64,000 nt of DNA from NCBI GenBank assembly GCA_947475995.1, contig CANJNI010000024.1, forward strand, positions 1 through 64,000, read 5' to 3'. This document shows positions 42,622-63,088 of the stretch, one piece after another. The notes beneath the pieces were generated by a model. That model ran no database searches. It saw only the letters and a list, made by a program, of their open reading frames with translations, and was not told the origin of the DNA. The stretch is from Beijerinckiaceae bacterium. GTDB taxonomy: Bacteria > Pseudomonadota > Alphaproteobacteria > Rhizobiales > Beijerinckiaceae. The position numbers and the translations under genes are program-made. Numbering within the stretch: the stretch's first letter is position 1; every line of letters starts with the position of its first letter.

Positions 42622-42699
42622 CAACGACTTCCCCTGCATACGAACACGATGCCAAAGCCGACGCCAGGGAGCAACGCCAAAATCCCGCCATTTGCGAAA

Positions 42700-42714: not shown

Positions 42715-42734
42715 GTCCGCCGTCGATGGCAGCT

Positions 42735-43619
42735 TCAGCCGTTCGCCATCACGGGAATCTGCATGCGGCCGATGCCCTGCATTTCGAACGTCATCACGTC
42801 GCCCGGCGCGACGCGGCCCACGCCCGAGCAGGTGCCGGTCATGATGATGTCGCCCGGCAGGAGCGTGTAAAAGGACGAAGCCAGCGCGATCTGCTGACGG
42901 ACCTTCATGATCATGTCGCTGGTGTTGGACTTCTGCCGCAGGTCGTCATTGACCCACAGGCTGAAATCGAGCGTCTCGGGATCGGCGATCTCGTCCTTCG
43001 TGACGAGCCACGGGCCCAGCACCGAATAGGTGTCGATCGACTTGCGGAACGAGCGATCTTCCTTGCCGCGCACCACCATGTCGAGAGCCATCGCGTAGCC
43101 GACGACATAATCGAGCGCATCCTTCTCGGCGATATCCGAGCCGCGCTTGCCGATGACAAGGCCGAGTTCGGCTTCATGATCATTGCGGCGATCAGGAAAG
43201 CGCAGCTTCACGCCCTCGGAGGGACCGACAAGCGAGGAGTTGGCCTTCAGGAAGAAGCCTTGATCGAGAACAGTCTGCACGCCCGAGGACGAGTCGCGCT
43301 CGCCGCGGTTGCGGTGCTCGATGGTGGTGTCCGCGGCCATTTCCGCCCGGTGCGCCTGATAATTGGTCGGCACGCCGATGATCTTGCTGGGGTTGGCGAC
43401 AGGGCTCAGGAACCGGACCGAGGCTGCATCGAAGGTCTGTCCCTTGTCGGCGAGCTTTTCGATATCGGCGCGCCATGCGTCGAGATTGGCGATCAGGCGA
43501 TCGCTGACCGGGGCCGGATAGCGGACGGGTTCAAGCCGGTCGAGGATGGAAGTGACGTCATGGACCTTGTCGCCCCGCACGACCCCGATACGATTGTCAT
43601 TGAACCGACAGATCCTCAT
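42735..43619 (-). CDS. Fumarylacetoacetate hydrolase (FAH) family protein
   Basis: The 294-residue protein has the FAH metal site and core: DHEAELGLVIGKRGSDI, VRGKEDRSFRKSIDTY, WVNDDLRQKSNTSDMI and DIIMTGTCSGVG. FAH-family enzymes cleave C-C bonds of acylpyruvates late in aromatic catabolism. ATG 43619 follows a GGGGAG site. It precedes irr on the same strand. Confidence 0.88.
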   Translation of the reverse strand: MRICRFNDNRIGVVRGDKVHDVTSILDRLEPVRYPAPVSDRLIANLDAWRADIEKLADKGQTFDAASVRFLSPVANPSKIIGVPTNYQAHRAEMAADTTIEHRNRGERDSSSGVQTVLDQGFFLKANSSLVGPSEGVKLRFPDRRNDHEAELGLVIGKRGSDIAEKDALDYVVGYAMALDMVVRGKEDRSFRKSIDTYSVLGPWLVTKDEIADPETLDFSLWVNDDLRQKSNTSDMIMKVRQQIALASSFYTLLPGDIIMTGTCSGVGRVAPGDVMTFEMQGIGRMQIPVMANG

Positions 43620-43807
43620 CCGTTTTCTCCCCAATGAATTGCGCTGCGCCCCCCGGGGGCGTCGGGCGCAGTGTTACTATGGGGCGCGCGCAAAAGCACC
43701 GGGTTTTCTGGGGCCGGCGGTGGCGGCGCAGCGATGGTCAGCGCCCGTCTCATTGCTGGACCCGCCTCGCCCCTGTAGGCTCCGCGCGTCTCCCGCACCG
43801 GAAAGCC
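43620..43807. other. Divergent intergenic region (188 bases)
   Basis: The gap separates the FAH gene (minus) from the SbcD-like gene (plus). I found no LexA box, palindrome or strong promoter here by eye. Confidence 0.3.
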
Positions 43808-48682: not shown

Positions 48683-49060
48683 TTGCAGAATCATGCTTTT
48701 ATCGAAGCCGAAATTGTCGCCATCCGGGGCATGCGGCTGATGTTTGAAGCCGGGGTCGAGATGTCGCGCCAGATCTGGCTCGAACAGGCCGGCTATTGCG
48801 ATTTCCTGCTTTTGGCGTCGCCGTTGCACGAGGGTCGTTACCGCTGGCGCGTGCGCTTCGAGGACGTGGAGTCTGCGCTCGAGGCTCGCGGCAGCCGGGT
48901 GCTGGCGGCCGACCTGTCGGCGCTGATCGGCGATTGCCTGCTGGAGCCGCTGATCTGGTCGATCTACATCGAGGCGGCCCGGGGCCAGATGTCTGATGAG
49001 CGTCCGCGACCGCCTGCCCGCAACGCGGCGCCGGTTCTAGCCGGGTCGTCCAAAAGATGA
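48683..49060 (+). CDS. Small protein of unknown function
   Basis: I do not recognise this 125-residue protein. It is mixed alpha/beta, rich in aromatics (WLEQAGYCDFLLLASPLHEG and RYRWRVRFEDVE), with a Pro/Arg-rich tail. A TTG start at 48683 is supported by GGAGG 6 bases upstream. Its 3' end overlaps the start of the Gfo/Idh gene by 4 bases, so it is probably co-transcribed with that gene. Confidence 0.5.
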   Translation: MQNHAFIEAEIVAIRGMRLMFEAGVEMSRQIWLEQAGYCDFLLLASPLHEGRYRWRVRFEDVESALEARGSRVLAADLSALIGDCLLEPLIWSIYIEAARGQMSDERPRPPARNAAPVLAGSSKR

Positions 49061-50175
49061 TCCGCGTCGGTCTCGCGGGTCTTGGAGCGGCGGCCCGGAT
49101 GGTTCTGCCGATCTTCGAGGATATCGACGGGTTCGAACTTGCCGCAGCGGCAGATGTGCGTCCGGACGCAAGGGAAGGTTTTTCCAAATCGTACGGGCGG
49201 CCCGCCTTCGTCAGCATCGAAGCCATGTGCGAAGCAGCCCGGGTGGATGCTGTCTGGATCGAGACGCCCAACGAGCTTCACTGCGAACATGCACTTACGG
49301 CGGTGGCGCACGGCAAGCATGTGATTTGCGCGAAGCCATTGGGAGTCACGCTTGACGAGTGCGAGCGCATGATCGAGGCCGCGCGCGCGGCGGGCGTTCA
49401 TCTGGTGCAGGCGCATTGCCGGGCAATCGATCCGCCCGTGCTGGCCATGCGCGATCTGGTGCGCTCGGGGAAACTTGGTCAGGCGATCCAGATCGAAACT
49501 TCGATCCATAACGACTGGCTGCAACGGCCGCGTCTGGCCGAGGAACTGGATGAAAATGTCGGCGGCGGCGTGTTGCTGCGCCAGTTGCCGCATCAGGTGG
49601 ACATCGTCCGCGCGATTGCGGACTCGCCCGTGAGCGAGGTTTATGGAGTCACCGGTCGCTGGGACCCGGCCTTCGCGTCCGACGGCAATTACGTCGGGTT
49701 GCTCAAATTCGCCAATGGAGCAAGCGCGACGATTGCCTTCAACGGTTATGGCTGGTTCGACACAACCGAACTGACATGGGGAGTTGACGGTCTTGGAAAG
49801 CGCAACAAGGTTGCGCGGCCGGCGTCCGTACGGCGTACCGGGACACTGTCAGCCAGCGAAAAATACGCCGCCGCGCCCAGCCAGACTTCTCGGGCCGGAC
49901 GCTCGTTTGCGCCGATCTTCGGCCAGACGATCGTGTCCTGCGAGCGCGGTTCGGTCCGGCAGTCGCCTGCCGGCTTGCTCGTTTACGATGCGAACGGACG
50001 CCATCGGCTCGGCATCCCGCCCAACCTTGGCCGCCGCGCCGAATTGCTGGCCCTGCGGCAAGCAATCGAAACGGGCGAGAGGCCATTCCCGGACGGGGAA
50101 TGGGGGCGGGAGACGCTGCGCGTCTGCCTCGCCCTGAGGGAATCGGCAAGAACCGGAAAGCCGGTCGCGCTTTAG
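49057..50175 (+). CDS. Gfo/Idh/MocA-family NAD(P)-dependent dehydrogenase
   Basis: This 372-residue protein has a Rossmann fold (VGLAGLGAAARMVLP), the cofactor segment VWIETPNELHCEHAL and the catalytic-lysine loop ICAKPLGVTLDECE. The family includes phthalate dihydrodiol dehydrogenase (Pht4-type). Its neighbourhood with a Rieske oxygenase points to dehydrogenation of a cis-dihydrodiol (inference). It overlaps the preceding small gene by 4 bases. The convergent Bug gene shares its end. Confidence 0.82.
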   Translation: MIRVGLAGLGAAARMVLPIFEDIDGFELAAAADVRPDAREGFSKSYGRPAFVSIEAMCEAARVDAVWIETPNELHCEHALTAVAHGKHVICAKPLGVTLDECERMIEAARAAGVHLVQAHCRAIDPPVLAMRDLVRSGKLGQAIQIETSIHNDWLQRPRLAEELDENVGGGVLLRQLPHQVDIVRAIADSPVSEVYGVTGRWDPAFASDGNYVGLLKFANGASATIAFNGYGWFDTTELTWGVDGLGKRNKVARPASVRRTGTLSASEKYAAAPSQTSRAGRSFAPIFGQTIVSCERGSVRQSPAGLLVYDANGRHRLGIPPNLGRRAELLALRQAIETGERPFPDGEWGRETLRVCLALRESARTGKPVAL

Positions 50176-51203
50176 CGATCCTGGAGACCGAGCAAGTCGC
50201 GAACACGGGCGATGGTGGCAGCCGGAGTGGCGTAAATCGCCTCCACAGTTTTCAGAATGTCGGCAGGCGCAACCGGACGAACGTCGAGCCTTTGCTTTGC
50301 CATCTCGTCAAGGAAGGCCGGATCGCGAACCGTCTTGTCAAAGGCTGCGCGCAACGCCTCCGCGCGATCAGCCGGCACGCCCGGCGAGGTCATGACGGGC
50401 CGCATATAGCTCAGCGGCGCATACACGACCCGCATGATGTCCCGCTCCTCGTCGGTCTTCGCCTGCTCCGCAAGGTTCGGAACGGCTCCGAGATCCGGAT
50501 TGCTCTTGATGCCCAACTGGAGCGGAATGACGATCTTCTTGTCCGCCAAGAGTTGCTGCAGCTCGGCCTTGATGGTCGAACCGGGGAGTCCGCACTGTCC
50601 GTCCACCTCTCCGCGCTCGGCGGCGAGGCGCACTTCCACCATGCCCGGATAACCTGTCACGACGCGGAAGCGGTAACCGAAAAGCGCGTTGAGAATTTTT
50701 CCGTCAATGGCCGATCCCCCGGTGGAGCCGGTCGCGCCGACGACAATTTCACGTTTCTTGAGATCGTCGAGCGACTTGAGGTCCTTGGCCCAGAACGCAC
50801 AAGCTGTCGTGTCATCCGCCACGCTCCCGATCCACGTAAACTTACGCGGATCGTAGCTGGCGCTCTTGGGTTCCAGCAAAGGGGCCGTTGTGCTTTGCGG
50901 ATTGGACAGCGACAGCGTCAGCCCATCCGGAGCAGCCACGCTCGCCACGTAGGAAACCGCATTGATCCCGCCCGCTCCCGGCATGTTCTGGATCACCACG
51001 GTGGGCGAGCCGGGAATGTGCTGCCCCATATGCCGCCCAAGTGCGCGCGCATAGAGATCGAACGTCGATCCGGGCGGATATCCCACCACGATGCGGACAG
51101 TCTTGCCGCCGAAGAAGTCTGCAGCGGTCTGGGCCCTGACGCCTGCAGTCGCACAATATGCCGCGACGGTCAGCGCGAGACCAAGCTTGAGTTGGCGGAT
51201 CAT
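50172..51203 (-). CDS. Bug-family TTT solute-binding receptor (orphan)
   Basis: This 343-residue protein has a signal peptide (ending near GVRA-Q) and the Bug signature KTVRIVVGYPPGSTFDLYARA plus PGAGGINAVSYVA. Bug proteins deliver carboxylates to TctAB. ATG 51203 is preceded by GGAGGG. No TctA or TctB gene adjoins it, so it may feed the TctBA system encoded at 61114-63088 or act as a sensor. Confidence 0.85.
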   Translation of the reverse strand: MIRQLKLGLALTVAAYCATAGVRAQTAADFFGGKTVRIVVGYPPGSTFDLYARALGRHMGQHIPGSPTVVIQNMPGAGGINAVSYVASVAAPDGLTLSLSNPQSTTAPLLEPKSASYDPRKFTWIGSVADDTTACAFWAKDLKSLDDLKKREIVVGATGSTGGSAIDGKILNALFGYRFRVVTGYPGMVEVRLAAERGEVDGQCGLPGSTIKAELQQLLADKKIVIPLQLGIKSNPDLGAVPNLAEQAKTDEERDIMRVVYAPLSYMRPVMTSPGVPADRAEALRAAFDKTVRDPAFLDEMAKQRLDVRPVAPADILKTVEAIYATPAATIARVRDLLGLQDR

Positions 51204-51348
51204 TTTCCCTCCCTGGCCCATCTGTTTGCGGGCCGCATTCGTTTGGTGCCTAGCGGAGACCAGGAGTTTGCACAATCTGCGTCGGAGCGACAATCTTGAT
51301 TTTCCCGGACCGAAGGGCGACAAACGTTCAAACAGATGAGGAAGCGAA
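51204..51348. other. Divergent region between Bug receptor and Rieske oxygenase genes
   Basis: The 145-base gap carries ribosome-binding sites on both sides (GAGG before ATG 51349 and GGAGGG before ATG 51203). I could not identify a clear promoter or operator by eye. Confidence 0.3.
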
Positions 51349-52620
51349 ATGCTCACTGAAGCGGAAAACAGGACGCTTACGGAAATCGGACCGGGCTCTC
51401 CGATGGGCGATTTGATGCGCCGCTACTGGCAGCCCGTCGCCGCGAAGGCGGAACTGGCCGGCCGCTGGACGAAACGTGTTCGCATCCTCGGCGAGAACCT
51501 CGTTCTTTACCGCGACAAGTCCGGCCATTATGGCCTGGTAGGTGAGTTCTGTCCTCACCGGGGCGCATCGCTCGCCTACGCCATTCCGCAGCAGAACGGC
51601 ATCCGCTGCCCCTATCATGGATGGCAGTTCGATGCTGAAGGCACTTGCATCGACCAACCGAACGAAACGCGCCATGCGCTGAACGGCAAGAAAGCCATTG
51701 CGGGATATCCGGTGCAGGAAATGGGCGGACTTCTGTTCGCCTATATGGGGCCGGCCCCCGCGCCCTTGCTGCCGAAACTCGACGGACTCGTGGCGGAAGG
51801 CACCATCAGGCACATCGGACGCGCGATCATTCCCTGCAACTGGCTCCAGATCATGGAGAATTCTGTCGATCCGGTTCATGTGGAATGGGCGCACGGGGCC
51901 CTCCTCGAATTCCTGCACGAGGATGAAGGTCTGAAGACGCCCTGGTCCCGCAAGCATGCCAAGATCGGCTTCGACGAATTTCCACACGGAATCATCAAGC
52001 GTCGCATGCTGGTCGGCCAGACCGAGGAGCATTCGGACTGGAAGGTCGGCCACCCGCTGGTTTTTCCGAACACTTTGGCGGTGGGGGTCGGCGGCGGCGA
52101 CTGGCAGGAATATCGTTTCCAGTTTCGCGTGCCGGTCGACGACACCAACACGCTGCACTTCTGGTATTCCGCCTATACCACTCCTGCGGGGGCGGAAGTT
52201 CCTGACCATCTCCTGCGTGACACGCCGGTCTATGAAGTGCCCTTCGTGGACGACAAGGGCGAATATCTGCTCGATCTTGTCCATGCGCAGGACATCATGA
52301 ACTGGGTGACGCAGGGAGCCGTTGCGGATCGCAGCAAGGAAAGTCTGGGGGCGAGCGACCGGGGCCTCGTCGTCTACAGGCGGATGCTGCTTCGGGAAAT
52401 GGAAAAGGTGAAAGCCGGGCAAGACCCAATTCATACATTCCGCAATCCGGACGACTATCCGGTCATCCACCTGCCTCTCGAGATCAAGGGCAACATGGCG
52501 GCGCGCGGCTTCGAGCTGAACTTTCGTCAGCACATGACGTCCTTCTCGCCGATTGCGGACGACATCGTCGCCGTGTTCACCGGGGTCGAGAAGCAAAAGG
52601 AGGCGGCGGCCTCCCGATAA
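51349..52620 (+). CDS. Rieske non-haem iron aromatic oxygenase, alpha subunit
   Basis: This 423-residue oxygenase has the Rieske site C68-x-H70 and C87-x2-H90 (CPHRG then CPYHG), and the mononuclear iron ligands D174, H177, H182 in NSVDPVHVEWAH. The N-terminus (IGPGSPMGDLMRRYWQPV) is like phthalate-dioxygenase-type enzymes that use a separate reductase. No reductase or ferredoxin gene is visible in the window. The aromatic acid substrate is inferred. Confidence 0.9.
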   Translation: MLTEAENRTLTEIGPGSPMGDLMRRYWQPVAAKAELAGRWTKRVRILGENLVLYRDKSGHYGLVGEFCPHRGASLAYAIPQQNGIRCPYHGWQFDAEGTCIDQPNETRHALNGKKAIAGYPVQEMGGLLFAYMGPAPAPLLPKLDGLVAEGTIRHIGRAIIPCNWLQIMENSVDPVHVEWAHGALLEFLHEDEGLKTPWSRKHAKIGFDEFPHGIIKRRMLVGQTEEHSDWKVGHPLVFPNTLAVGVGGGDWQEYRFQFRVPVDDTNTLHFWYSAYTTPAGAEVPDHLLRDTPVYEVPFVDDKGEYLLDLVHAQDIMNWVTQGAVADRSKESLGASDRGLVVYRRMLLREMEKVKAGQDPIHTFRNPDDYPVIHLPLEIKGNMAARGFELNFRQHMTSFSPIADDIVAVFTGVEKQKEAAASR

Positions 52621-52669: not shown

Positions 52670-53419
52670 TCAGCTGTCGGTGAGCCTTTTATAATAACGC
52701 CACAACGTGAGCGTCATTCCCGATACCGAGCCATCCGACCCGTCAAATCTGGTTCGGGGCTTCATGATCGGCTCAAGGACCTTTTGGTCTTCTTCCGAAA
52801 TCGGCTGAGCGCCGCCGAGGAGATGCGCATCATAGTTCATTTCAGCCAGCTCATTGAGATGAATGGCTGAAATACACGCTTCCTCGATGCTTCCCCCCAT
52901 CGTGGTGATGCCATGGCCGCGCATGAGGCAGACAGGGGAGTCGCCCATCGCGGCGACCAGATCGCGCCCGAGGGCGGGAGAGTTGATCAAGATGCTCCGC
53001 TCATAGGTCGGGACGCCTTCACACGCGAAGCCTGCGCTGCCGGGATTGAAAGCGCCATAGAGCGGCAGCAAGGGCTTGCAGCAGATCGTGAACAGAACCA
53101 CCTTGGGCGGGTGGATGTGCACAACAGACTGGACATCCGGGCGGGCTCTGTAGACTTCCGTGTGGATGAAGACTTCCTGCGGCGCGGCCAGACCGGGATC
53201 GCCGCTGACAAGCGCGCCATCAAGATCAACCTCGATGACCTGATCTTCCGTCGTATAACGAACGCCGACCTCGCCGGGCCCCCGCGCCCGGATCAGAATG
53301 CGATCAGTGCCCGGTACGCGCGCGCTAACGTGCCCCAACGCTGCTCTCGTGAGTTCAAGACGGCCCAGAACCCGACAGGCTGTAGCTATGCGCTCGCGCA
53401 AATCCTGAATGTCAGCCAT
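52670..53419 (-). CDS. Class II aldolase/adducin family protein
   Basis: This 249-residue protein has the family zinc site VVHIHPPK (two His) and LMRGHGITTMGGSIEEA. The family includes fuculose aldolases and also dihydroxyphthalate-type decarboxylases of aromatic pathways. Last gene of the minus-strand catabolic run, 9 bases after the CitE-like gene. With a Rieske oxygenase and dihydrodiol-type dehydrogenase nearby, decarboxylation of a dihydroxy aromatic acid is one hypothesis; retro-aldol cleavage is another. Confidence 0.8.
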   Translation of the reverse strand: MADIQDLRERIATACRVLGRLELTRAALGHVSARVPGTDRILIRARGPGEVGVRYTTEDQVIEVDLDGALVSGDPGLAAPQEVFIHTEVYRARPDVQSVVHIHPPKVVLFTICCKPLLPLYGAFNPGSAGFACEGVPTYERSILINSPALGRDLVAAMGDSPVCLMRGHGITTMGGSIEEACISAIHLNELAEMNYDAHLLGGAQPISEEDQKVLEPIMKPRTRFDGSDGSVSGMTLTLWRYYKRLTDS

Positions 53420-53428
53420 AGACTTTCC

Positions 53429-54313
53429 CTATGCTCCCGATTCGTCGCGCATCACCTGCAGCCGGGCGCGCTCCAGAATGCGACGCGCGCCTTTCAGATG
53501 CGGTGCGTCAAGCATGCGCCCGTTCAGGGACGCCACGCCGCTCTCGGTATTCTCGAATGCAGCCAAAACGGCTTTCGCGTGCGCGATGGCTTCTGCGCCC
53601 GGCGTGAAGGCCGCATTTATTATCGCGATCTGATCGGGGTGAATCGCGGCCTTTGCTGTAAAGCCGTCACGCGCGGCTTGCTCCGCTTCGGCCCTTAATC
53701 CATCCGGGTTGCGAAAATCCACATAAACCGCGTCAATCGCCGCAGCTTCCATCGCACTTGCGGCCAGCAAGCACTGATTGCGAACGGCCTCGAAAAGCGG
53801 GCGATAGCGGCCGTTCGCTTCGCGGTTTGCGCTTGCGCCGATATCTGCTCCGAGATCCTCGCCGCCCCACAGCAGCCCCGCGACACGTCGCAAAGGTGCC
53901 CGGTATTCAGCAAGCGAAAGAACCGCCTGCGCGGTCTCGGTCGCGATCGGGTAGATTTCGATCTGCCCTTCGCCGAGGTCCTCACGGACCTCAAGAATCT
54001 CGATCATGTCCGCCAGCCGACGCATGTCGGCAGGACCCTGACATTTCGGCAGCATCACGCCGTCCGGATTGCCTCGCACGATGGCCGCCAGATCATGCAG
54101 GGCATGGGGCGTGTCGAATGCATTGATGCGTACGATGACGCGTTTGCCGTTGCGCGGCGAACCAAGCACCTCGGCGCAAAGCGCCCGCGCCGCTTCTTTT
54201 CTGGACGGCGCAACCGCATCCTCAAGATCAAGAATGAGCGCATCGGCGGGAGTGCCGAAACCCTTTGCGATCTTGCGTTCGCTGTCGCCCGGAACAAAAA
54301 GAAGCGAGCGCAT
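53429..54313 (-). CDS. HpcH/HpaI-family (CitE-like) CoA-ester lyase
   Basis: The 294-residue TIM-barrel protein has CitE-like motifs: MRSLLFVPGDSERKIAKG, ALILDLEDAVAP, VIVRINAFDT, GVMLPKC and IYPIATETAQAVL. Its relatives cleave citryl-, malyl- or citramalyl-CoA. With an acetyl-CoA-transferase-like gene and a crotonase in the same run, (S)-citramalyl-CoA cleavage to acetyl-CoA and pyruvate is the best guess. Confidence 0.85.
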   Translation of the reverse strand: MRSLLFVPGDSERKIAKGFGTPADALILDLEDAVAPSRKEAARALCAEVLGSPRNGKRVIVRINAFDTPHALHDLAAIVRGNPDGVMLPKCQGPADMRRLADMIEILEVREDLGEGQIEIYPIATETAQAVLSLAEYRAPLRRVAGLLWGGEDLGADIGASANREANGRYRPLFEAVRNQCLLAASAMEAAAIDAVYVDFRNPDGLRAEAEQAARDGFTAKAAIHPDQIAIINAAFTPGAEAIAHAKAVLAAFENTESGVASLNGRMLDAPHLKGARRILERARLQVMRDESGA

Positions 54314-54319
54314 GCGGCC

Positions 54320-55486
54320 TCAAAAATTGTCGAGACTGAAGAAGCCGTCCGTGTCGGAGAAATCCGCCACGATCTTCTTGCCCACGAGGTCTTTCAGGGT
54401 TTCGGTCGCGCCGCCGCCAAGCGTGCCGTAGCGGGCGCCGCGGTAGAAATGCGAAACCAGATATTCGTCCGTGAAGCCATAACCGCCGTGCGTTTGCAGC
54501 GCTTCGCTGGTGACGCGGATCGCCATCTCGTTCACATACATCTTGGCGACTGCCGCCAGATAGGGATCAGGAAACGGATTGGCCGAACAGGCAGCGCGAT
54601 ACAGCATGGAACGCCCAACTTCGATATCGCGGTACATTTCGGCGATCTTCCAGCGCATCCCCTGCATCGACGCAGTGGTCTTGCCGAAAATTTCGCGTCC
54701 GCGCGTGTAGCGGATCGCTTCTTCAAATGCGCCTTCGGCGAGGCCCAGCGACACGGAAGGATTCATGCAGCGCTGCGTGTTGAAGGCGCTCAGAAGCTTC
54801 TTGAAGCCGTTGTCGGTGATGATGAGATTCTCGACCGGAAGCTCCATGTCGTGGAACTGTATCTCCGCAAGATTTTCGCCGCCCATCGTGTGATAGCGCG
54901 CCGTCACCTCGAAGCCCTTGGTCTTCGGGTCGACCAGAACGCAGCCGATGCCTTCGCGGCCCGGCACACCGTTGACGCGCGTAAACACGATGAAGCAATG
55001 CGCTTCGTCGGCACGGCTGATGAGCGTCTTCGTGCCGTTCAGCACCACGCGATCGTTGTGAACGACCGTGTTGGTCTTATAGTTGGCGACGTCAGTGCCG
55101 GCGTGCGGCTCGGTCATGCAGATGGCGAGAATCGTCTCGCCCGTCACGACGCCGGGCAAGAACTTCTGCTTCACATGGTCGGGCGCATAGACCGAAATGA
55201 TGCGGTTCTGCGCGCCCATGGCGCTCATCACGGCCATTGAGGTCGCGTAGCAGACCTTGGCGATTTCCTCGAGCACCAGAACGCAATCGAGCACCGGCAG
55301 CCCCAGCCCGCCATATTCCTCCGGCACTGCCATGCCGAGAACGCCGATATCCGCCAGATCCTTGATGTTCTCGAACGGGAAGGTTCCATCCTGCCACTTG
55401 TGGACACGGGGACGGAATTTTTCCTGTACGAGTTCGCGAACGCTGCCGACCATGGCGCGCTGCTCGGCTGTCATTCGGAAGTCCAT
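54320..55486 (-). CDS. Acyl-CoA dehydrogenase
   Basis: This 388-residue flavoprotein is a standard-length acyl-CoA dehydrogenase: AICMTEPHAGTDVANYK, LNGTKTLISRAD, the helix EALQTHGGYGFTDEY and the flavin-binding end YGTLGGGATETLKDLVGKK. At the end of that helix the usual catalytic Glu region reads GTLGGGATE, so the base should be checked. ATG 55486 follows GGAGTGG. It lies between MmgE/PrpD and the CitE-like gene. Confidence 0.88.
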   Translation of the reverse strand: MDFRMTAEQRAMVGSVRELVQEKFRPRVHKWQDGTFPFENIKDLADIGVLGMAVPEEYGGLGLPVLDCVLVLEEIAKVCYATSMAVMSAMGAQNRIISVYAPDHVKQKFLPGVVTGETILAICMTEPHAGTDVANYKTNTVVHNDRVVLNGTKTLISRADEAHCFIVFTRVNGVPGREGIGCVLVDPKTKGFEVTARYHTMGGENLAEIQFHDMELPVENLIITDNGFKKLLSAFNTQRCMNPSVSLGLAEGAFEEAIRYTRGREIFGKTTASMQGMRWKIAEMYRDIEVGRSMLYRAACSANPFPDPYLAAVAKMYVNEMAIRVTSEALQTHGGYGFTDEYLVSHFYRGARYGTLGGGATETLKDLVGKKIVADFSDTDGFFSLDNF

Positions 55487-55569
55487 CGTTCCACTCCATT
55501 CGGTGAACCGGAAGCATCGGTCCGGCAAATCTCTCAAACCTGAATCACAAAGGCTGGTCTGTCTTGTCT

Positions 55570-56997
55570 TCAGGCTGTTGCTAGCAAACGCACGAGTGAT
55601 TCTGCCTTCGGAAGCTGTTCCAGATTTGCAATCGCCTCGCTGAAACGCCTTGCGGTATCGGCAGGCCACGCCAATCCGCTGAAGCGCAGGCAATCGGCAA
55701 ATTTCTTGTCGAAATCCGCCCGCGTCATCGGAGCGTTCGGGTGTCCGCGCGGATAATCCACGCGCGCCTCGAAGACGCCATCTTCCGTCTCTACGCGCAG
55801 CAGCGTGGGCGAGATCGTGCGCCCCCACTCGCGTTCAATCTCCGCGTCCTCGAAACATTCGGTCATGGCCGCGAGGCGCAAGGGTTCGGGACGCTTCAGG
55901 CCTTCCGCCGACAGATGCATCAGCCCGACCTCTCCGTCGGCCAGCGCGCAACCTACCGTGTAGGGAATGCTGAACTGCGCCTGGACAACCGTCGTCGGCG
56001 CACGGCGAATGTCAGGCGGCGTACAGACAGCCTCGTAGGCCTGATGATTGGTGAAGGACTGGATGCGCCGCACGCGGTCGAGCCGGAAGCCGGGTTGCTG
56101 ACGAATGATCAATGCCGCGTCAATGGCCGTGTGGTCGAAGCGGCAGCACGGATAAGGCTTGTAGCTCAGGCCCTCCAGCTCGAACCGCGCTCCCAGATCG
56201 GCGCGCAAGACTTGCGGATCGTAGGCGTCGCGCAGATAGGACCGGAACAGGCCGTCAACGCCCTCGAACGTCTGCTGCGCGCCACGAATTTCGCGCAGCG
56301 CAAGTTCCACCGCAACGATGGCCGATCTTGCGGCAAAGCCGGGCTGCATACGTTTTGTGGTGGCCGCATCGCGGGTGACCTGATGGGTCCCGGCCGCCTG
56401 ACTGTAGACGATGCCCAGCGCATTCATGGTCTGGCGCGCATCGAGTTTCATGATGCGGGCGGCCGCAGCGGTCGCGCCGAAATGCCCGAACAGCGAGGTA
56501 TACATGAACCCGCTTTCGATGATCCCGATGCGGGTCGCCATTCCCAGACGACACACAAGTTCGAGCCCGGCCACGGCGCCCGCGATCAGATCCGCGCCGG
56601 TGGCGTCGCCGGAGAGTTCGGCTGCCGCAAGAGCAGCCGGAACCACCGAGACGCCCGCATGCAACACTGCCGCGTCGTGCGTGTCGTCATAATCGCGCGC
56701 GTGGGCCATCATGCCGTTGATGAGAGCAGCGTGGTGGGCGGGTACGCGATGCGGCGAACACAGGATGGATGCCTGCGGGGTTCCGCCCCACGAGGTGACG
56801 AGATCGAGCACTTCGGGCACGCCCGGCGCTGATATCCCGGCTGTTGCGCAAGCCAGCGTGTCGAACAGGTTGGCCTTGGCGGCTTCCACCACCGAAACAG
56901 GAAGGTTGCTGACATTGATGGCGGAACTGAATGCGGAATAAACCTCCGCGAAATCGGGTCCGGTGTGCTTTCGCGCGTGTCCGCCGTCGCCGTGCAT
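55570..56997 (-). CDS. MmgE/PrpD-family protein
   Basis: The 475-residue protein is a full-length MmgE/PrpD member (2-methylcitrate dehydratase and cis-aconitate decarboxylase family), with NGMMAHARDYDDTHD, GLELVCRLGMATR, FGHFGATAAAARIM and KPYPCCRFDHTAIDAAL. The active-site Asp-His segment is intact. Activity on a C5 or C6 dicarboxylate is likely. ATG 56997 follows GGAGG, and a candidate operator lies just upstream. Confidence 0.88.
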   Translation of the reverse strand: MHGDGGHARKHTGPDFAEVYSAFSSAINVSNLPVSVVEAAKANLFDTLACATAGISAPGVPEVLDLVTSWGGTPQASILCSPHRVPAHHAALINGMMAHARDYDDTHDAAVLHAGVSVVPAALAAAELSGDATGADLIAGAVAGLELVCRLGMATRIGIIESGFMYTSLFGHFGATAAAARIMKLDARQTMNALGIVYSQAAGTHQVTRDAATTKRMQPGFAARSAIVAVELALREIRGAQQTFEGVDGLFRSYLRDAYDPQVLRADLGARFELEGLSYKPYPCCRFDHTAIDAALIIRQQPGFRLDRVRRIQSFTNHQAYEAVCTPPDIRRAPTTVVQAQFSIPYTVGCALADGEVGLMHLSAEGLKRPEPLRLAAMTECFEDAEIEREWGRTISPTLLRVETEDGVFEARVDYPRGHPNAPMTRADFDKKFADCLRFSGLAWPADTARRFSEAIANLEQLPKAESLVRLLATA

Positions 56998-57019
56998 GAA
57001 GAGTCCTCCCGGCTCCTAT

Positions 57020-57047
57020 TCCTATAAATCCTCTATAGGATATAGGA
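57020..57047. promoter_or_regulatory. Nested inverted repeat, probable GntR operator
   Basis: An outer TCCTATA/TATAGGA pair (57020-57026 and 57041-57047) encloses a perfect ATCCT-CTAT-AGGAT dyad (57028-57041). It lies between the GntR gene and the MmgE/PrpD start, 23 bases upstream of the latter, where bound regulator would block transcription of the downstream run. Confidence 0.6.
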
Positions 57048-57095
57048 GGTCATCGCAAGCTGCTGCGCCCCCTGGAGCCAGCAGGAAATGCATGA

Positions 57096-57842
57096 TTAGA
57101 CGATACGTCGCCCCTCCCGGGCCAGAACACTGGTCGGCTGGTCCAGCAGGTGTTTGTAGCGATTGCGCACCAGGTGTTCGAGCGCCTCGACATGCGCTTC
57201 CATCTGCGCAGCAGCGGCTTCTCCATCGCGTTTGCGGCAGGCATCCAGAATGCGCTCGTGCGCTTCCACCACATGCTTCTGGTTGCCGAACGAGTAGCGC
57301 ATTCCGTGATGCTCGCCGTCGGCCAGCAGGCTGATGGTGGACCAGAATGTCTCCAGCACCTTGTTGCCGCTGGCGCGCGCCACGATGCCGTGGAAGACCC
57401 GGTTTTCCTCGATAAAGGCAGGCTGGTCGTCCTTGATGGCCCGCATGCGGTTGATGGAGGATTCCATTTCAGCGAAGTCCGCCTCGGCGCCGTTGACGGC
57501 CGCTTCGCGGGCGAGCGCAGGTTCGACGACTTCGCGCGCCTGCAACAACGAGATGAAGGGCACATCATGCAGGCGCAGAAAAACCGAGAGCCCATGCGCC
57601 AGAACGTCGACGCTTGGATGCCGCACCAGTATGCCGCCGCCCGGTCCCGGTCGCATTTCGATCACGCCCTGGGATTCGAGAATCCGCAGACTTTCGCGCA
57701 GGGTGGGACGGCTGACGTTGTAAGTCGCCAGAAGGTCAGCTTCCGTGCCGAGGCTGTGTCCGGGCTTCAGGTTTTCCCGGATCACCTTTTCCAGAAGCGC
57801 CTGCACCACCTGCTCGGCCTTGCTGCTGCTGACCGTCACCAT
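57096..57842 (-). CDS. GntR-family (FadR subfamily) transcriptional regulator
   Basis: This 248-residue protein has an N-terminal winged helix (LGTEADLLATYNVSRPTLRESLRILESQG) abbreviated here as TYNVSRPTLRESLR, and a helical FCD effector domain with metal-type His residues (NRVFHGIVARAS, EAHERILDA, EAHVEALEHL). FadR-type FCD regulators sense carboxylates or their CoA esters. The gene is embedded in the operon it probably controls, beginning 3 bases from the crotonase stop. Confidence 0.85.
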   Translation of the reverse strand: MVTVSSSKAEQVVQALLEKVIRENLKPGHSLGTEADLLATYNVSRPTLRESLRILESQGVIEMRPGPGGGILVRHPSVDVLAHGLSVFLRLHDVPFISLLQAREVVEPALAREAAVNGAEADFAEMESSINRMRAIKDDQPAFIEENRVFHGIVARASGNKVLETFWSTISLLADGEHHGMRYSFGNQKHVVEAHERILDACRKRDGEAAAAQMEAHVEALEHLVRNRYKHLLDQPTSVLAREGRRIV

Positions 57843-57844
57843 AT

Positions 57845-58669
57845 TCAAGCTTTCTTGCTGCGCGGAGCAAAACGAGGCGGCCGCTTTTCAGCAAAGGCAG
57901 CAAGTCCCTCGGCGTAATCCGTCGAACCTAGCACATGCATCAGCGCCTGCCGTTCGATCTCCAGACCCTTTGCGAGCGTCGTTTCGATTCCCTCGCGGAT
58001 TGCTTTCTTGGCCAGAGCCGAAGCCGTGGGAGAACGACTCGCCAGAAGTGCGGCGAAGGCCACGAGCTTTTCGTCGAAGCTTTCCGGCGCAAAGACCATG
58101 TTGACCAGACCGATCTCGGCGGCCCGTTCGGCCGTCACCGGCTCTCCCGACAGGATCATTTCCAGTGCGCGCGGCACGCCGACAACGCGCGGCAAACGTT
58201 GCGACCCCCCTGCTCCCGGAAAGGCTCCGATGCGGGCCTCCGTGAGGCCGATCTGCACGCCCGTCATGGCGATGCGTATGTCGCATCCGAGCGCCATCTC
58301 GCAACCGCCCCCGAGCGCCAACCCATTCAACGCGGCGATGGTGGGCATCGGGGCGGCATCGAGCGCATTGATGGCGTCATTGATGGCGCGATTGTGGGCG
58401 ATGCGCGCGAGCTCCGCCATGTCCCGACGTTCCTTGAGGTCGGCGCCTGCGCAAAACGCCCTGCCCGTGCCACGCACGACCAGCACACGCGCGTCCCCGG
58501 CCAGCACGTCCTGCACGATGTCGCGCAGGGCGTTGGTCATGTCCACGCCGAGCGCATTCATCCGCTCGGGGCGATTGAGACGTATCTGGGCGACGCCTGT
58601 CGCGATCTCTTCGACCACAACGCCATCGCGCGACATCGGCAAGGATAGAATCTTTTCAAAGCCGCTCAT
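57845..58669 (-). CDS. Enoyl-CoA hydratase/isomerase (crotonase) family protein
   Basis: The 274-residue crotonase has GTGRAFCAGADLKERRD, LALGGGCEMALGCDIRIA and LTEARIGAFPGAGGSQRL, including both catalytic glutamates. It would hydrate an unsaturated acyl-CoA; in this operon it could replace the MaoC-type itaconyl-CoA hydratase. Its ATG overlaps the CoA-transferase stop by 4 bases. Confidence 0.87.
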   Translation of the reverse strand: MSGFEKILSLPMSRDGVVVEEIATGVAQIRLNRPERMNALGVDMTNALRDIVQDVLAGDARVLVVRGTGRAFCAGADLKERRDMAELARIAHNRAINDAINALDAAPMPTIAALNGLALGGGCEMALGCDIRIAMTGVQIGLTEARIGAFPGAGGSQRLPRVVGVPRALEMILSGEPVTAERAAEIGLVNMVFAPESFDEKLVAFAALLASRSPTASALAKKAIREGIETTLAKGLEIERQALMHVLGSTDYAEGLAAFAEKRPPRFAPRSKKA

Positions 58670-59955
58670 TGGGCCGCCATATGTTGAGCGGCGGATGCTG
58701 AGTGCACTGCTGCCAGAAGGCTTTCACGGAAATCCGGATGAGCAATCGCCGCGAGCCGTTCGGCGCGCACCGACAGAGGCTGGCCCCACAATTCCGCGAC
58801 GCCGAATTCCGTCACCACCACATCAATGTCGGACCGCGCAGTCGTTACCGGTCGACCGCCCAACGAAGCCACGATGCGAGAATTCTTTCCGTCCGGAGTT
58901 GTCGATGGAATCGCAAAGATCGACCGTCCACCGCGCGAGACGCGAGCGCCACGCACAAAGTCAACCTGCCCTCCGACTGCGCCGAGATAGCGCCCGCCGG
59001 CAATCTCGGAATTAGCCTGCCCGGACAGGTCGATCTCGATAGCCGAATTGATGGTGTGCAGGGCGTGAAGTTGGGCCATGGTCGCCGGGCTGTGCGTATA
59101 TTCAACCGACTTCAGCGCAATTGCGGGATTATCGTGCGCGTGATCGAGCAACCTTCGTGTGCCGAACAGGCCGCCGATGGTGGACAGTCCGGCGTCGAGA
59201 CCGCGATACGCATTTGTGACAACGCCGCGCTCGACCAGATCGACAAACACATCCGACACCACGCCGCTGTGAACCCCGAGATCGCGATGATGGAACAAGG
59301 CCCTGCCGACCGCGACGGGCAGCGTGCCGATCCCAAGCTGCACGGTGGCGCGATCCGGGATGAGTTCCGCAACACGACGCGCGACAGCGACTTCAGTGCT
59401 GGATGGTTCCGGATCGGGCATCAGTATTTCATCGCCATCAGCGATGACAAAATGATCGATATCCTGCGCCTGCACCAGCGCATCGTGGCGGGTCAGCGGC
59501 AAGCGCTCGTCAATTTCCGCAATGACGCAACGGGCGGACTGGATCATCGCTTGCGTAAAGTCGCAGATGACCCCCACGGAATAAACGCCGGTTTCCGGCA
59601 TCGGACGGGCGCGGATCAGCGCAACATCAACCGGAATGATGTGGCGGCGCAGAAGCTCCGGCACCTGCGACACATGTGTGGGGATGATGTCGATCAAACC
59701 CGCAGCCGTGAGACGACGGTTGGACCCTGCTCCGTTTAATCCGAAAACCGAAAACGGATGCAAATTGCGGGGCGCGAGCGTGTCGCCCGCCAACATGCCG
59801 ACGAACAGGCGAACACCGGACGGCAAAAAGTCCTTTTGCGACATCAGCGCGCGCGTCAACCCTCGCGGCTCGCCAATCGCTTGCGGCCAGCTGATGACAT
59901 CGCCGATTCGAAGAACCGCCGCGAAGTCGAAAGAACTGGCGGAAGGATGCCCCAT
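58666..59955 (-). CDS. Acetyl-CoA hydrolase/4-hydroxybutyrate-type CoA-transferase
   Basis: The 429-residue protein is a class I-type CoA-transferase of the acetyl-CoA hydrolase family with VQLGIGTLPVAVGRAL and the conserved-Glu segment INSAIEIDLSGQANSE, followed by GGQVDFVRGARVSRGG and VVTEFGVAELWG. The family includes itaconate CoA-transferases (Ict/RipA). It is first in the catabolic run and coupled to the crotonase. Confidence 0.85.
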   Translation of the reverse strand: MGHPSASSFDFAAVLRIGDVISWPQAIGEPRGLTRALMSQKDFLPSGVRLFVGMLAGDTLAPRNLHPFSVFGLNGAGSNRRLTAAGLIDIIPTHVSQVPELLRRHIIPVDVALIRARPMPETGVYSVGVICDFTQAMIQSARCVIAEIDERLPLTRHDALVQAQDIDHFVIADGDEILMPDPEPSSTEVAVARRVAELIPDRATVQLGIGTLPVAVGRALFHHRDLGVHSGVVSDVFVDLVERGVVTNAYRGLDAGLSTIGGLFGTRRLLDHAHDNPAIALKSVEYTHSPATMAQLHALHTINSAIEIDLSGQANSEIAGGRYLGAVGGQVDFVRGARVSRGGRSIFAIPSTTPDGKNSRIVASLGGRPVTTARSDIDVVVTEFGVAELWGQPLSVRAERLAAIAHPDFRESLLAAVHSASAAQHMAAQ

Positions 59956-60093: not shown

Positions 60094-61050
60094 TCAATCT
60101 CCGGTGATGTTGTTCTTCTCGGCCAGTTCCTTCCAACGACCCAATTCGGTCAGCACTGTCTTCGAGAATTCGTCGATGGACATCTTCGCCGGCAAGGCCG
60201 CCTGCTTCTCGATGAACGCGACCGCTTCCGGCGTATTCACGACGGTGTTCACGCCCTCATTGATCTTGGCCAGCACGTCGGCAGGCGCTCCGCTGGTGAC
60301 GAAGACGCCCCACCAGATATCGGTTTCGGCGCCCGGGAATCCGGCCTCGGCGACGGTGGGAACATTCGGCAGCGCCGTCGTCCGCGTCGGGCTCATGACG
60401 CCGACCGCCGTCACTGATTTGTTGAGGACGGCGGGCAGCACGGTGGTGACGGTGCCGAAGTAAATGTCGAGCCTGCCGCCGAGGAGATCAATCATCGCCT
60501 CGTTGCCGCCCTTGTAGTTCACCGCTTCCAGCTTCACGCCCGCCACGCTCGCGAACAGTTCCGCCGCGAAAGTGGTGCTGCTTGCGCCCAGCGCGCCGTA
60601 GAAAATCTTCTGCGTCTTGGCGAGGCGCACGACCTCTTTCAGATCGGGCAACGGAATGCGGCTGCCGGTCACGCCGATCATCTGGCCGCGCATCGCCATC
60701 GCGACAGGCTTGAGATCCTTGAGCGGATCGAACGGCATCGACTTCTGCACCGCCGCATTGATCGTGTAGCTGCTGGAGCTGAAGAGCATGGTGTAACCGT
60801 CGGGCCGCGCCTTCGCGACTGCCGCAGCGCCAATCGCGCCGCCCGCGCCCGCGCGGTTCTCGACAAGCACTGACTGCTTCCAGAGCTTGCTCAGTCCGTC
60901 GGCCACGAAACGTCCGAAAATATCGTTCGACGCGCCGGCGGAAAAAGGGATGATCAGCGTCACCGGCTTGTTGGGATATTGCTGCGCCAAGACAGGCGAT
61001 GTCGCCAGCACCATGCTTGCCAGCAGCAGCTTTGAAAGACTGGATTTCAT
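60094..61050 (-). CDS. Bug-family TTT solute-binding receptor
   Basis: This 318-residue protein has a signal peptide (ending near VLA-QQ) and the Bug motifs KPVTLIIPFSAGASNDIFGR and NRAGAGGAIGAAAVAKA. It is the extracytoplasmic receptor of the adjacent TctBA importer. ATG 61050 has a GGAGGAGG site upstream. Ligand probably a di- or tricarboxylate, unresolved. Confidence 0.88.
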   Translation of the reverse strand: MKSSLSKLLLASMVLATSPVLAQQYPNKPVTLIIPFSAGASNDIFGRFVADGLSKLWKQSVLVENRAGAGGAIGAAAVAKARPDGYTMLFSSSSYTINAAVQKSMPFDPLKDLKPVAMAMRGQMIGVTGSRIPLPDLKEVVRLAKTQKIFYGALGASSTTFAAELFASVAGVKLEAVNYKGGNEAMIDLLGGRLDIYFGTVTTVLPAVLNKSVTAVGVMSPTRTTALPNVPTVAEAGFPGAETDIWWGVFVTSGAPADVLAKINEGVNTVVNTPEAVAFIEKQAALPAKMSIDEFSKTVLTELGRWKELAEKNNITGD

Positions 61051-61113
61051 GTTCGTTTCCTCCTCCGTTGCAACGTCATGCACGCACGACGTCTGAACAT
61101 CTCAACACATGCG

Positions 61114-62619
61114 CTAACCGGCTTCCGCGAACACCTCGTCGCGGCTCTTGCGGATCTTCGGCAGGCTTGCGGCGATCAGCAGAATGGCTGCAAGCGTCAG
61201 GAAACCGGCCGAGATCGGCTGCGTTAAGAACACGCTGTAGTCGCCCTGCGAGAAAATCAACGCACGGCGGAAGTTTTCTTCCAGCAGCGGCCCCAGCACG
61301 AAACCCAGGATCAGCGGCGCAGGCTCGCATTCGAGCTTGCGGAACATGTAGCCCACGAAGCCGAAACCTGCAGCGAGAAACACATCGAAGCTGGTGAAGC
61401 GCGCCGAATAGGCGCCGATGCAGCAGAACAGCAGGATGGCCGGGAACAAGGCCCTGTAGGGAATGCTCAGCAATTTCACCCACAGGCCGACAAGCGGAAG
61501 ATTCAGGACCAGCAGCATCAGATTGCCGATCCACATCGACACGACCATCCCCCAGAAGATTTCCGGATTTTTGGTCATGACCTGCGGGCCGGGCTGAATA
61601 TTGTACATGATCATGGCCGCCAGCATCAGCGCCATGGTGGGGCTGCCCGGAATGCCGAGCGCCAGCGTCGGGATGAAAGCCGTCTGGGCTGCAGCGTTGT
61701 TGGCGGATTCAGGTCCCGCCACGCCCTCGATTGCCCCCTTGCCGAGCATGTGGCGATATTTCGAGACTTTCTTTTCCAGCCCGTAGGCAAAGAACGAGCC
61801 CAGCACGGGTCCGGCGCCCGGCAGAATGCCCAACAGACTGCCGATAGCGGTGCCGCGAATGATCGGCGGAACCATGCGACGAAAATCCTCGCGGTTCGGC
61901 ATCAACTGGCCGATTTTCTTGACGGAGGTTTCCCGCACCGTGTTGTCGCCAAGGCTTGCGATGACCTCGCCAAACGCGAAGACGCCAACGGCGATCACGA
62001 TAAACTCGATGCCTTCCTGCAACTCCGGATAGTTGAAGTTGAAACGCTGCGCGCCCGACGTGATGTCCGTGCCGACCATGCCAAGCAGGATGCCGATGAA
62101 GATCATCCCCACCGCCTTCGGGACGGAACCCGACGACAGCGAGATCGCCCCCACCAGTCCAACCACCATCAGGGAGAAATATTCCGGCCCGCCGAACCTG
62201 AAGGCGACGGTTGCGAGCGGCGCAGCAAAGGCGGCCAGCACGATGGTGCCGACGCAGCCCGCCGCAAAGGAACCGATAGCGGCTGTCGCAATCGCGACGC
62301 CCGCGCGGCCCTGCCGGGCCATCTGATAGCCGTCAATGACGGTGATGACCGACGATGTTTCTCCCGGCAGATTCACCAGAATGGCGGTCGTCGAACCACC
62401 ATATTGCGCGCCGTAGTAAATCGCCGCGAGCATGATGAGCGCGCCCGTCGGATCGAGCGCAAATGTAAACGGCAGCAGCATGGAGATCGTCGCCAGCGGG
62501 CCGAGACCCGGCAAGACGCCGATCAGCGTTCCCAGCGTGCATCCGATCAGCGCATAGAGCAGGTTCTGCGCCGACATGGCGGTCGAGAACCCGAGAGCGA
62601 GATTGCTGAAAATGTCCAT
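61114..62619 (-). CDS. tctA: TctA-family large permease subunit
   Basis: The 501-residue membrane protein has about 11 hydrophobic helices and the TctA motifs GCTLGTLIGVLPGLGPLATI, YYGAQYGGSTTAILVNLPGE and GVAGPESANNAAAQTAFIP. It carries out transport of a carboxylate driven by an ion gradient. It lies between TctB and the Bug receptor genes, with short gaps. Confidence 0.93.
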   Translation of the reverse strand: MDIFSNLALGFSTAMSAQNLLYALIGCTLGTLIGVLPGLGPLATISMLLPFTFALDPTGALIMLAAIYYGAQYGGSTTAILVNLPGETSSVITVIDGYQMARQGRAGVAIATAAIGSFAAGCVGTIVLAAFAAPLATVAFRFGGPEYFSLMVVGLVGAISLSSGSVPKAVGMIFIGILLGMVGTDITSGAQRFNFNYPELQEGIEFIVIAVGVFAFGEVIASLGDNTVRETSVKKIGQLMPNREDFRRMVPPIIRGTAIGSLLGILPGAGPVLGSFFAYGLEKKVSKYRHMLGKGAIEGVAGPESANNAAAQTAFIPTLALGIPGSPTMALMLAAMIMYNIQPGPQVMTKNPEIFWGMVVSMWIGNLMLLVLNLPLVGLWVKLLSIPYRALFPAILLFCCIGAYSARFTSFDVFLAAGFGFVGYMFRKLECEPAPLILGFVLGPLLEENFRRALIFSQGDYSVFLTQPISAGFLTLAAILLIAASLPKIRKSRDEVFAEAG

Positions 62620-62626: not shown

Positions 62627-63088
62627 CTACTGGTAGAAGAACGCGGGAAGAAGACGGAGCTGTAATCCGAGCAATGCGACGAAAATCACCCATGTCATCG
62701 GCAGCAGGACCGCGATCGAAATCGCAACATTCCGCCATGATATCGGGGGATGCGCGAGCGCCGCGCCCACGAGCAGAACCGGCACGGTGACGACGAGCCC
62801 GGTGGGTTCGATCAGCAGACCGAACAGAACGACAGCCGCAAGGACTGCAAAGACGGTGCGGAAAGAGAAGCCTTCAAACTTTGTGGATTCCGCATGACCG
62901 CGTACCGACGCAACCAGCAGCACCAGGCCGGTGATTGCGAGCCCTATGGCGACGACCAGCGGAAAGAACCCCGGTCCCATCCGGGTGCTCGTGCCGAGCC
63001 GATAAGTAGACGCCACATACGCGACGCCGATTCCGAAAAGCAGATAGAAGAGACCGGTGAAGAAGTTCTTCTGGTCGACGATCTTCAC
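62627..63088 (-). CDS. tctB: TctB-family small permease subunit
   Basis: This 153-residue protein has four predicted helices and the TctB pattern (FTGLFYLLFGIGVAYVAST, TSTRMGPGFFPLVVAIGLA). It is the small membrane subunit of the tripartite tricarboxylate transporter and the first gene of the operon, 7 bases before tctA. Confidence 0.88.
   Translation of the reverse strand: MKIVDQKNFFTGLFYLLFGIGVAYVASTYRLGTSTRMGPGFFPLVVAIGLAITGLVLLVASVRGHAESTKFEGFSFRTVFAVLAAVVLFGLLIEPTGLVVTVPVLLVGAALAHPPISWRNVAISIAVLLPMTWVIFVALLGLQLRLLPAFFYQ

Follow-up and report, generated by a model that had tools for sequence, protein, structure and literature searches.

The window analysed here is a stretch of 64,000 nucleotides from a Beijerinckiaceae bacterium (contig CANJNI010000024.1 of assembly GCA_947475995.1, positions 1 to 64,000; G+C 63%), whose genome is a draft assembly of 4.14 Mb in 73 contigs. 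At its far end lies a run of eleven co-directional minus-strand genes, which encode, in order, a CaiB-type CoA-transferase, the transporter proteins TctB, TctA and TctC, a CoA-transferase-like protein, a crotonase, a GntR regulator, an MmgE/PrpD protein (hereafter PrpD), an acyl-CoA dehydrogenase (ACAD), a CitE-like lyase and a class II aldolase (Table 1). The original prediction had described an itaconate-like operon running from the aldolase gene to position 59955. All of the genes that it named are present on the minus strand where it placed them, but the run does not end at 59955: the three transporter genes and the family III CoA-transferase gene continue it, and the FadR/GntR gene between the crotonase and PrpD genes had gone unmentioned. 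The CaiB gene was located by a PF02515 search of the genome, and its full protein was taken from the contig past the window end. The crotonase and CoA-transferase-like genes share 4 bases, and gaps of 6 and 9 bases separate the ACAD gene from the CitE gene and the CitE gene from the aldolase gene.

Table 1. Genes of the run and two neighbouring genes, with positions in the window.
Product	Position	Strand	Domain or model
CaiB-type family III CoA-transferase, 410 aa	63272..64000 in window, on to contig position 64504	-	PF02515, 385.7 bits
TctB, small membrane protein of tripartite tricarboxylate transporter	62627..63088	-	PF07331, E 1.4e-16
TctA, large membrane protein of tripartite tricarboxylate transporter	61114..62619	-	PF01970, E 8e-157
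TctC substrate-binding protein	60094..61083, start probably 61050	-	PF03401, E 1.9e-51
Family I CoA-transferase relative (Cat1/4-hydroxybutyrate/RipA group), Gly231 for catalytic Glu	58666..59955	-	PF13336/PF02550
Crotonase, proposed hydratase, E124 and E144	57845..58669	-	PF00378
FadR/GntR-family regulator	57096..57842, start approximate	-	PF00392 and PF07729
MmgE/PrpD protein, (M/I)Y replacing His motif	55570..56997	-	PF03972 and PF19305
ACAD, GGG and Gln type	54320..55486 (open reading frame to 55828; homologous part from ~55486)	-	PF00441/PF02770/PF02771
CitE-like beta-hydroxyacyl-CoA lyase	53429..54313	-	PF03328
Class II aldolase/decarboxylase, PhtC-like, last in run	52670..53419	-	NF053537
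Rieske oxygenase, LigXa-like C-terminal domain	51349-52620	convergent with run	
Gfo/Idh/MocA oxidoreductase	49057-50175		

As had been recognised from the start, the enzyme classes of the run equal those of the published five-gene itaconate/methylsuccinate cluster, which the available text of PMC12290011 describes as a hydratase, an acyl-CoA dehydrogenase, an MmgE/PrpD protein, a CoA-transferase and a CitE lyase (ich, mcd, mmgE/msi, ict and ccl). For comparison we used four reference clusters from genomes reached via Pseudomonas and Paraburkholderia loci, which were assigned by gene order rather than by name and in which the hydratase gene was not identified. They hold ACAD, PrpD, CaiB, CitE and TRAP genes (L159), ACAD (cut), PrpD, CaiB and CitE genes (L160), or ACAD, CaiB, PrpD and CitE genes (L161 and L162). 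The five enzyme classes are clustered in the window as they are in the known system, the hydratase of the window being a crotonase, and the CoA-transferase of the reference rows belongs to family III, as does the window CaiB. Both also have an uptake protein nearby, namely TctC in the window, TRAP in L159 and a TctC-type binding protein gene near the C. necator cluster (PMC12290011). The window differs in having a crotonase in place of MaoC, an ACAD without its glutamate and a PrpD without the His/Tyr motif, and it additionally carries a CoA-transferase relative without its glutamate and a GntR regulator. By BLASTP, the window proteins share 26-33% (ACAD), 28-31% (PrpD), 27-28% (CaiB) and 32-34% (CitE) identity with the reference rows. 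Identities of 26-34% are undecisive on function; distance to the reference cluster was therefore rejected as a guide, and residues and trees were used instead. Profiles built from the reference Mcd and isomerase rows revealed no obvious canonical itaconate/methylsuccinate cluster elsewhere in the draft host genome, the former retrieving nine ACADs at E <= 1e-20 (top score 197 bits, window protein in fifth place) and the latter eight PrpDs (top score 258 bits, window protein in third place).

Judged by their domains and residues, the crotonase, the CitE-like lyase and the CaiB protein are the conventional part of the putative pathway. The itaconyl-CoA hydratase of itaconate clusters is a MaoC-type enzyme; no MaoC gene is found among the eleven genes of the run, and the crotonase does stand in that place, as originally proposed. 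Its E124 and E144, which we take to be the two catalytic glutamates of a hydratase, are invariant in all three rows of alignment A5 (the window, L080 and L081), and the protein matches the AUH structure 1hzd at 1.1e-44. In the CitE-like protein, R62, E126, D153 and D269, presumably the metal and catalytic residues, are conserved in five rows (the window and four others). Its score against the NCBIfam model RipC_Ccl is 185 bits, below the cut-off of 375; this cut-off was rejected as not decisive for CitE identity, since in reference cluster L160 the CitE protein too reaches only 136. The CaiB protein has a CoA_transf_3 domain and a YPAMDLV sequence whose Asp we assume to mark the active-site motif of family III CoA-transferases, and it scores 240 bits against the succinyl-CoA:mesaconate CoA-transferase model (cut-off 700), for which the Ict-like row of L160 scores 191. 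We propose the CaiB protein at 63272 as the competent candidate for CoA activation.

The remaining enzymes depart from their relatives in the active site. In the alignment, the window ACAD has GGG in place of the YEG glutamate and Gln in place of the alternative glutamate of isovaleryl-type enzymes. GGG and FN(T/M/V)QR occur in all 16 rows of the clade to which it belongs, which has support of 100/100 and excludes the Mcd-like rows, and the reference Mcd rows retain Glu in LNAER. The window ACAD is thus not an Mcd with a catalytic glutamate orthologous to the reference enzymes. A census of both base positions covered 97 ACAD rows, of which 93 have letters at both places; an acid is present at one of the two in 78 rows and is lacking at both in the other 15. 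The acid-less rows comprise four from the window clade (the window counted twice), L075 (annotated as a desulfinase), L076 and nine distant rows, the last being paralogues that are probably misaligned. According to the available text of PMC8360864, GGG replacing YEG is the stated mark of the benzylmalonyl-CoA dehydrogenase IaaF, for which the authors propose loss of the 2-carboxy group in place of proton abstraction, a mechanism they call unprecedented. The window enzyme shares the GGG with IaaF, the two being likened by motif description and not by sequence, and the eleven genes of this operon, to which the search was confined, include no indoleacetate gene.

The genes around other members of the ACAD clade offer a hint at its substrates. 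Loci L189-L191 encode an HpaI-type aldolase, SucC-like and SucD-like proteins, the ACAD and an SDR protein; L192 and L193 encode PrpD, SucC-like and SucD-like proteins with TctC and the ACAD on the opposite strand, and L194 has the same set minus PrpD. In L185 (9529-14745), an isocitrate/isopropylmalate-type dehydrogenase, a class II aldolase, SucC-like and SucD-like proteins and the ACAD are accompanied by two TctC proteins, and in L187 and L188 a class II aldolase adjoins the ACAD. No SucC/SucD, aldolase or comparable partners were recognised beside the ACAD by BLASTP grouping in L182 and L183. The families in these contexts were assigned by domain scans for L185, L188, L189 and L190 and by BLASTP grouping for the remaining loci. 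Because SucC/SucD-type CoA ligases stand in place of CaiB, this gene context suggests that the substrate of the clade is a small carboxylic acid activated as its CoA ester. The L185 row is also a candidate in its own right for a further acid pathway with a GGG-type ACAD.

The second altered active site is that of PrpD, whose nearest PDB match is IDS epimerase (5e-45). Where the reference isomerase rows of L159-L162 have HY..FH, the window protein has IESGFMY, and the pattern (V/I)(E/D)(S/G)G(F/W/Y)(M/I)Y is common to the PrpD proteins of the window, L079, L080, L186, L192 and L193; the cut PrpD of L081 does not reach the motif. PrpD proteins of the window type retain DDxH together with the Lys and the later His, and the catalytic Tyr and His expected of methylsuccinate isomerase are absent from the window protein. 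The use of an extra catalytic Tyr by both IDS epimerase and methylsuccinate isomerase is described in the available text of PMC12290011. We assume this residue to be Tyr145 of IDS epimerase, which agrees with a count on the PDB alignment. PrpD with the window motif and a GGG-type ACAD share a locus in five cases (the window, L080, L186, L192 and L193). The known methylsuccinate isomerase likewise pairs with its dehydrogenase, whereas the window-type PrpD has another active site.

The third altered active site belongs to the 58666 protein, which had been taken for a CoA-transferase of the Ict/RipA family. Its placement in the 4-hydroxybutyrate CoA-transferase/RipA group stands (PDB 3eh7, E 4e-79; RipA 3qli, E 9e-64), and the family I domains are present by sequence. 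A role as itaconate CoA-transferase is not supported because the catalytic glutamate required of a family I CoA-transferase is absent: Gly231 (HSG) aligns with the Glu of HTE/HSE in five of five PDB rows displayed in the profile alignment, the RipA row not being among them. Compared with the RipA-type itaconate/butyryl CoA-transferase, family and domain order are the same, and the catalytic Glu249 of RipA, as given in the available text of PMC3180442, is Gly231 in the window. Across 111 aligned rows (the window and duplicates included) this place is held by Gly in 84, Glu in 25 and Asp in 1, with 1 gap. In a quick tree of 103 rows, from which duplicates and fragments had been dropped, the 77 Gly rows form one side of one branch, with 25 Glu rows and 1 Asp row making up the remainder (Gly/Glu split, SH-like approximate likelihood ratio test support 90). 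The sample from the same bacterial order, which was not chosen by motif, contains 6 Gly, 8 Glu and 1 Asp among 15 non-self rows, and its Gly rows are the closest to the window protein. The host genome contains no second protein of this kind at E <= 1e-20.

Neighbouring genes also differ between the Gly and Glu types. We searched genome contigs with a profile of the CoA-transferase-like alignment A1 and considered the best 80 of at least 588 loci. Within 3.5 kb, the 63 Gly-type loci have a CitE homologue in 24 cases, a crotonase in 26 and CaiB in 21, and the 17 Glu-type loci have none of the three; where flanks are full, the CitE counts are 21 of 52 and 0 of 12. This contrast is no more than suggestive, because the scan pattern had HSG in it and the loci were ranked by similarity to the window protein. 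The replacement of Glu by Gly is shared with IpdAB of the type I CoA-transferase superfamily, for which the available text of PMC5380842 reports that transferase activity was not found and assigns a hydrolase role. IpdAB has two subunits and is related to glutaconate CoA-transferase, whereas the window protein is of the single-chain Cat1 type; because IpdAB belongs to another branch, the window protein could work like IpdAB but is not thereby an IpdAB. By this analogy, the CoA-transferase relative is probably a hydrolase-type partner and not a transferase.

The association of the core genes (CoA-transferase-like, crotonase, ACAD, CitE and CaiB) is a real module, beyond chance, because they recur together in four other genomes (L080, L081, L184 and L186). 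The order CoA-transferase-like, crotonase, (GntR), ACAD, CitE is common to the window and these four loci, in which CaiB follows CitE, whereas in the window it stands at the front; between GntR and ACAD, the window has PrpD and L184 an extra CaiB. The matching genes of L080, from a Burkholderiales metagenome-assembled genome (MAG), are on the same strand, and their products share 56% (PrpD), 39% (TctC), 57% (CoA-transferase-like), 67% (ACAD) and 53% (CitE) identity with the window proteins. L081, an Alcaligenaceae MAG, has the CoA-transferase-like, crotonase, ACAD, CitE and CaiB genes in order with a cut PrpD gene ~4 kb on, and CaiB, PrpD, CoA-transferase-like and CitE genes are present in L079, a Rhodospirillum MAG. 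Identity to the window protein is 59% (L079), 71% (L080), 66% (L081), 58% (L184) and 66% (L186) for CaiB, 58% (L080), 56% (L081), 61% (L184) and 62% (L186) for the crotonase, and 65% (L080), 63% (L184) and 69% (L186) for GntR; gene starts in these related loci are approximate.

Within its own bacterial group the operon is rare. The CoA-transferase-like protein has matches at E <= 1e-60 in 13 of 248 other genomes of the same order, none of the 248 above 45% identity, and the regions around six of these matches (L055-L060) lack the core. At the same threshold PrpD has a match in 1 of 397 other genomes of the phylum, and the ACAD profile at E <= 1e-140 found 2 of 384 other genomes of the class, both without the operon. 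Around the L080 genome, a search with the ACAD alignment found a close ACAD in 12 of 199 genomes (that genome included), two of which besides L080, namely L184 and L186, carry the same core. Plasmid matches (L063-L065, L067, L068 and L073-L078) contain no full core. CitE was dropped as an operon marker because it is too common, with matches at E <= 1e-50 in 117 of the 248 other genomes of the order. A separate arrangement was seen in ten sphingomonad/Caulobacter loci (L062, L066, L083, L084, L088-L091, L097 and L113), where ACAD, CitE, a Gly-type CoA-transferase-like protein and a crotonase are encoded in a row; their ACAD has APV, with Glu at the alternative place, and CaiB is near in 8 of the 10.

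Taken together, the operon is real, rare and recurrent. It is of the same kind as the itaconate/methylsuccinate cluster, but its enzymes are not orthologous and three of them have altered active sites, and its substrate may well be another small acid related to itaconate and methylsuccinate. The reading we favour, with a confidence that falls just short of an even chance, is that of a catabolic operon for a small di- or tricarboxylic acid that is parallel to, and not orthologous with, the itaconate/methylsuccinate cluster. From the observed gene content, order and recurrence, the residues present and absent and the separate ACAD clade, we infer the reactions, their order and the kind of substrate. 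TctABC would import the acid, the PrpD-family protein would isomerise it and the family III CaiB protein would transfer CoA to it. The base-less ACAD would then probably oxidise a 2-carboxyacyl-CoA by releasing CO2 in place of a proton, the mechanism suggested for IaaF, and the crotonase would hydrate the resulting enoyl-CoA. Finally, the CitE-like lyase would cleave the thioester of a beta-hydroxy acid into acetyl-CoA and a 2-oxo acid, and the CoA-transferase relative without its glutamate would probably serve as a hydrolase-type partner, as with IpdAB. Cleavage of the CitE type is the likely end reaction, and its products are still the likeliest outcome, in keeping with the original proposal. 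A further-reaching version, possible although doubtful, is that an undescribed pathway is built around two unnamed subfamilies. One would be a base-less ACAD clade that, in metabolism other than that of indoleacetate, oxidatively decarboxylates the 2-carboxyacyl-CoA esters of small di- or tricarboxylates. The other would be the large group of single-chain CoA-transferase relatives with Gly for Glu, turned into C-C or thioester hydrolases that work with CitE-type lyases.

Several observations weigh against a decarboxylating small-acid operon. Four of nine GGG rows (the window counted twice) retain the alternative glutamate, the residue census rests on alignment with no structure behind it, and the nearest named model and structure for the ACAD are those of a desulfinase and not of IaaF. 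Further ACAD groups without the glutamate catalyse other reactions, according to the available text of PMC8360864. No B12 mutase is present among the eleven genes of the run, the genome beyond the run not having been searched for one. The contrast in neighbours between Gly-type and Glu-type loci is confounded by relatedness, as well as by the scan pattern and ranking noted above. The related loci are also uneven: L079 has no ACAD or crotonase match within its 15 kb, GntR was not found in L081, and the PrpD of L184 is of another type.

An unlikely alternative is that the itaconate/methylsuccinate pathway has arisen convergently a third time, here with unusual active sites. The CaiB protein would then be the itaconate CoA-transferase, the crotonase an itaconyl/mesaconyl-CoA hydratase, the ACAD a methylsuccinyl-CoA dehydrogenase, PrpD a methylsuccinate isomerase and CitE a citramalyl-CoA lyase, and the list of enzyme classes would equal the published one. 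The crotonase AUH, whose structure the window crotonase matches, can hydrate substrates of the itaconyl/mesaconyl-CoA type, and no close relative of Mcd or the isomerase is encoded elsewhere in the host genome. Two convergent forms of the pathway have already been described, one of the clusters, that of C. necator, lying by a TctC-type gene (available text of PMC12290011). What speaks against a third form is the state of the three active sites: there is no glutamate at either base position of the ACAD, where the reference Mcd rows keep that of LNAER; PrpD lacks the Tyr/His motif common to the reference isomerase rows; and the 58666 protein lacks its catalytic glutamate.

The class II aldolase, which the original prediction placed at the end of the run, is indeed its last gene. 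It is not supported as a fixed part of the pathway, because it has no match in five related loci and its nearest NCBIfam model is that of 3,4-dihydroxyphthalate decarboxylase, PhtC (NF053537), whose cut-off of 200 bits it narrowly passes at 207.9. Neither it nor the neighbouring Rieske and Gfo proteins have a match at E <= 1e-3 in L079, L080, L081, L184 or L186, and the aldolase was accordingly rejected as a core member. The weak matches in L185, L187 and L188 (25-31% identity) belong to a different subfamily of class II aldolase, the PRK07044 type in the two that were scanned (L185 and L188). The presence of the aldolase in the run may reflect a local addition, or the gene may be part of a separate aromatic-acid module, possibly one formed with the genes at 49057-52620. 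It is improbable that the run as a whole is part of a phthalate-type aromatic-acid pathway, in which the PhtC-like decarboxylase, the Rieske oxygenase, the Gfo/Idh/MocA protein and a second TctC-like gene would act on a phthalate-like acid and the CoA genes would take the ring-cleavage product. The PhtC score and the LigXa-like domain of the Rieske protein fit such a pathway, as do the Sphingobium locus L062, where the row of ACAD, CitE, Gly-type CoA-transferase-like and crotonase genes adjoins Rieske-type genes, and L090, where a Rieske-like gene lies ~8 kb away. However, the aldolase, Rieske and Gfo proteins are missing from the five related loci, the Gfo protein is best matched by inositol/sugar-type models, far below their cut-offs, and the Rieske gene is transcribed towards the run.

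Most improbable is a pathway for a sulfur-containing dicarboxylate, in which a desulfinase-like ACAD would remove the sulfino group from an acyl-CoA: the top NCBIfam (3-sulfinopropanoyl-CoA desulfinase, NF042439, 281.9 bits) and PDB (5af7) matches of the window ACAD are desulfinases, both proteins have Gln at the same place and no Glu at either, and the desulfinase-named L075 is one of the five closest rows that the clade excludes (fork of 21 rows, 100/100; grouping of the five rows, only 91/41), but the score is far under the 600-bit cut-off, Met or a gap stands opposite Arg84 of 5af7, presumably a functional desulfinase residue, and no thiol dioxygenase or sulfite gene occurs among the scanned neighbours, many neighbouring open reading frames being unscanned. 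The sequence of 5af7 is identical to that of 5ahs, which is named as a desulfinase in the available text of PMC8360864.

Other features lie around the run. A weak TctC-like protein is encoded within 49057-52620, divergent from the Rieske gene. Just past the window on the contig, an iron-containing alcohol dehydrogenase gene (L061 2689-3857) is divergent from CaiB and is followed by the apparent start, judged by eye, of a PaaI-type thioesterase gene that is broken off. At 31566-43634 the window has a second CoA-thioester cluster, which encodes an amidohydrolase, a MarR regulator, a crotonase, an AMP-binding ligase, a large ACAD, a periplasmic binding protein and a fumarylacetoacetate-hydrolase family protein.

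Among the matches listed in our literature search there was no publication on this gene set; subscription journals lay mostly outside its scope, so novelty is unproven. Routine annotation of the operon as an itaconate/methylsuccinate cluster, or as a generic set of CoA enzymes, could mispredict its chemistry, as the residue evidence indicates that two of the named activities cannot run by the textbook mechanism. If the decarboxylating reading of the small-acid operon is true, the IaaF-type reaction, as the available text of PMC8360864 presents it, would occur in the small-acid metabolism of Proteobacteria as well as in the breakdown of indoleacetate, and the operon would offer a way to test the function of a wide range of CoA-transferase relatives that lack the nucleophile.

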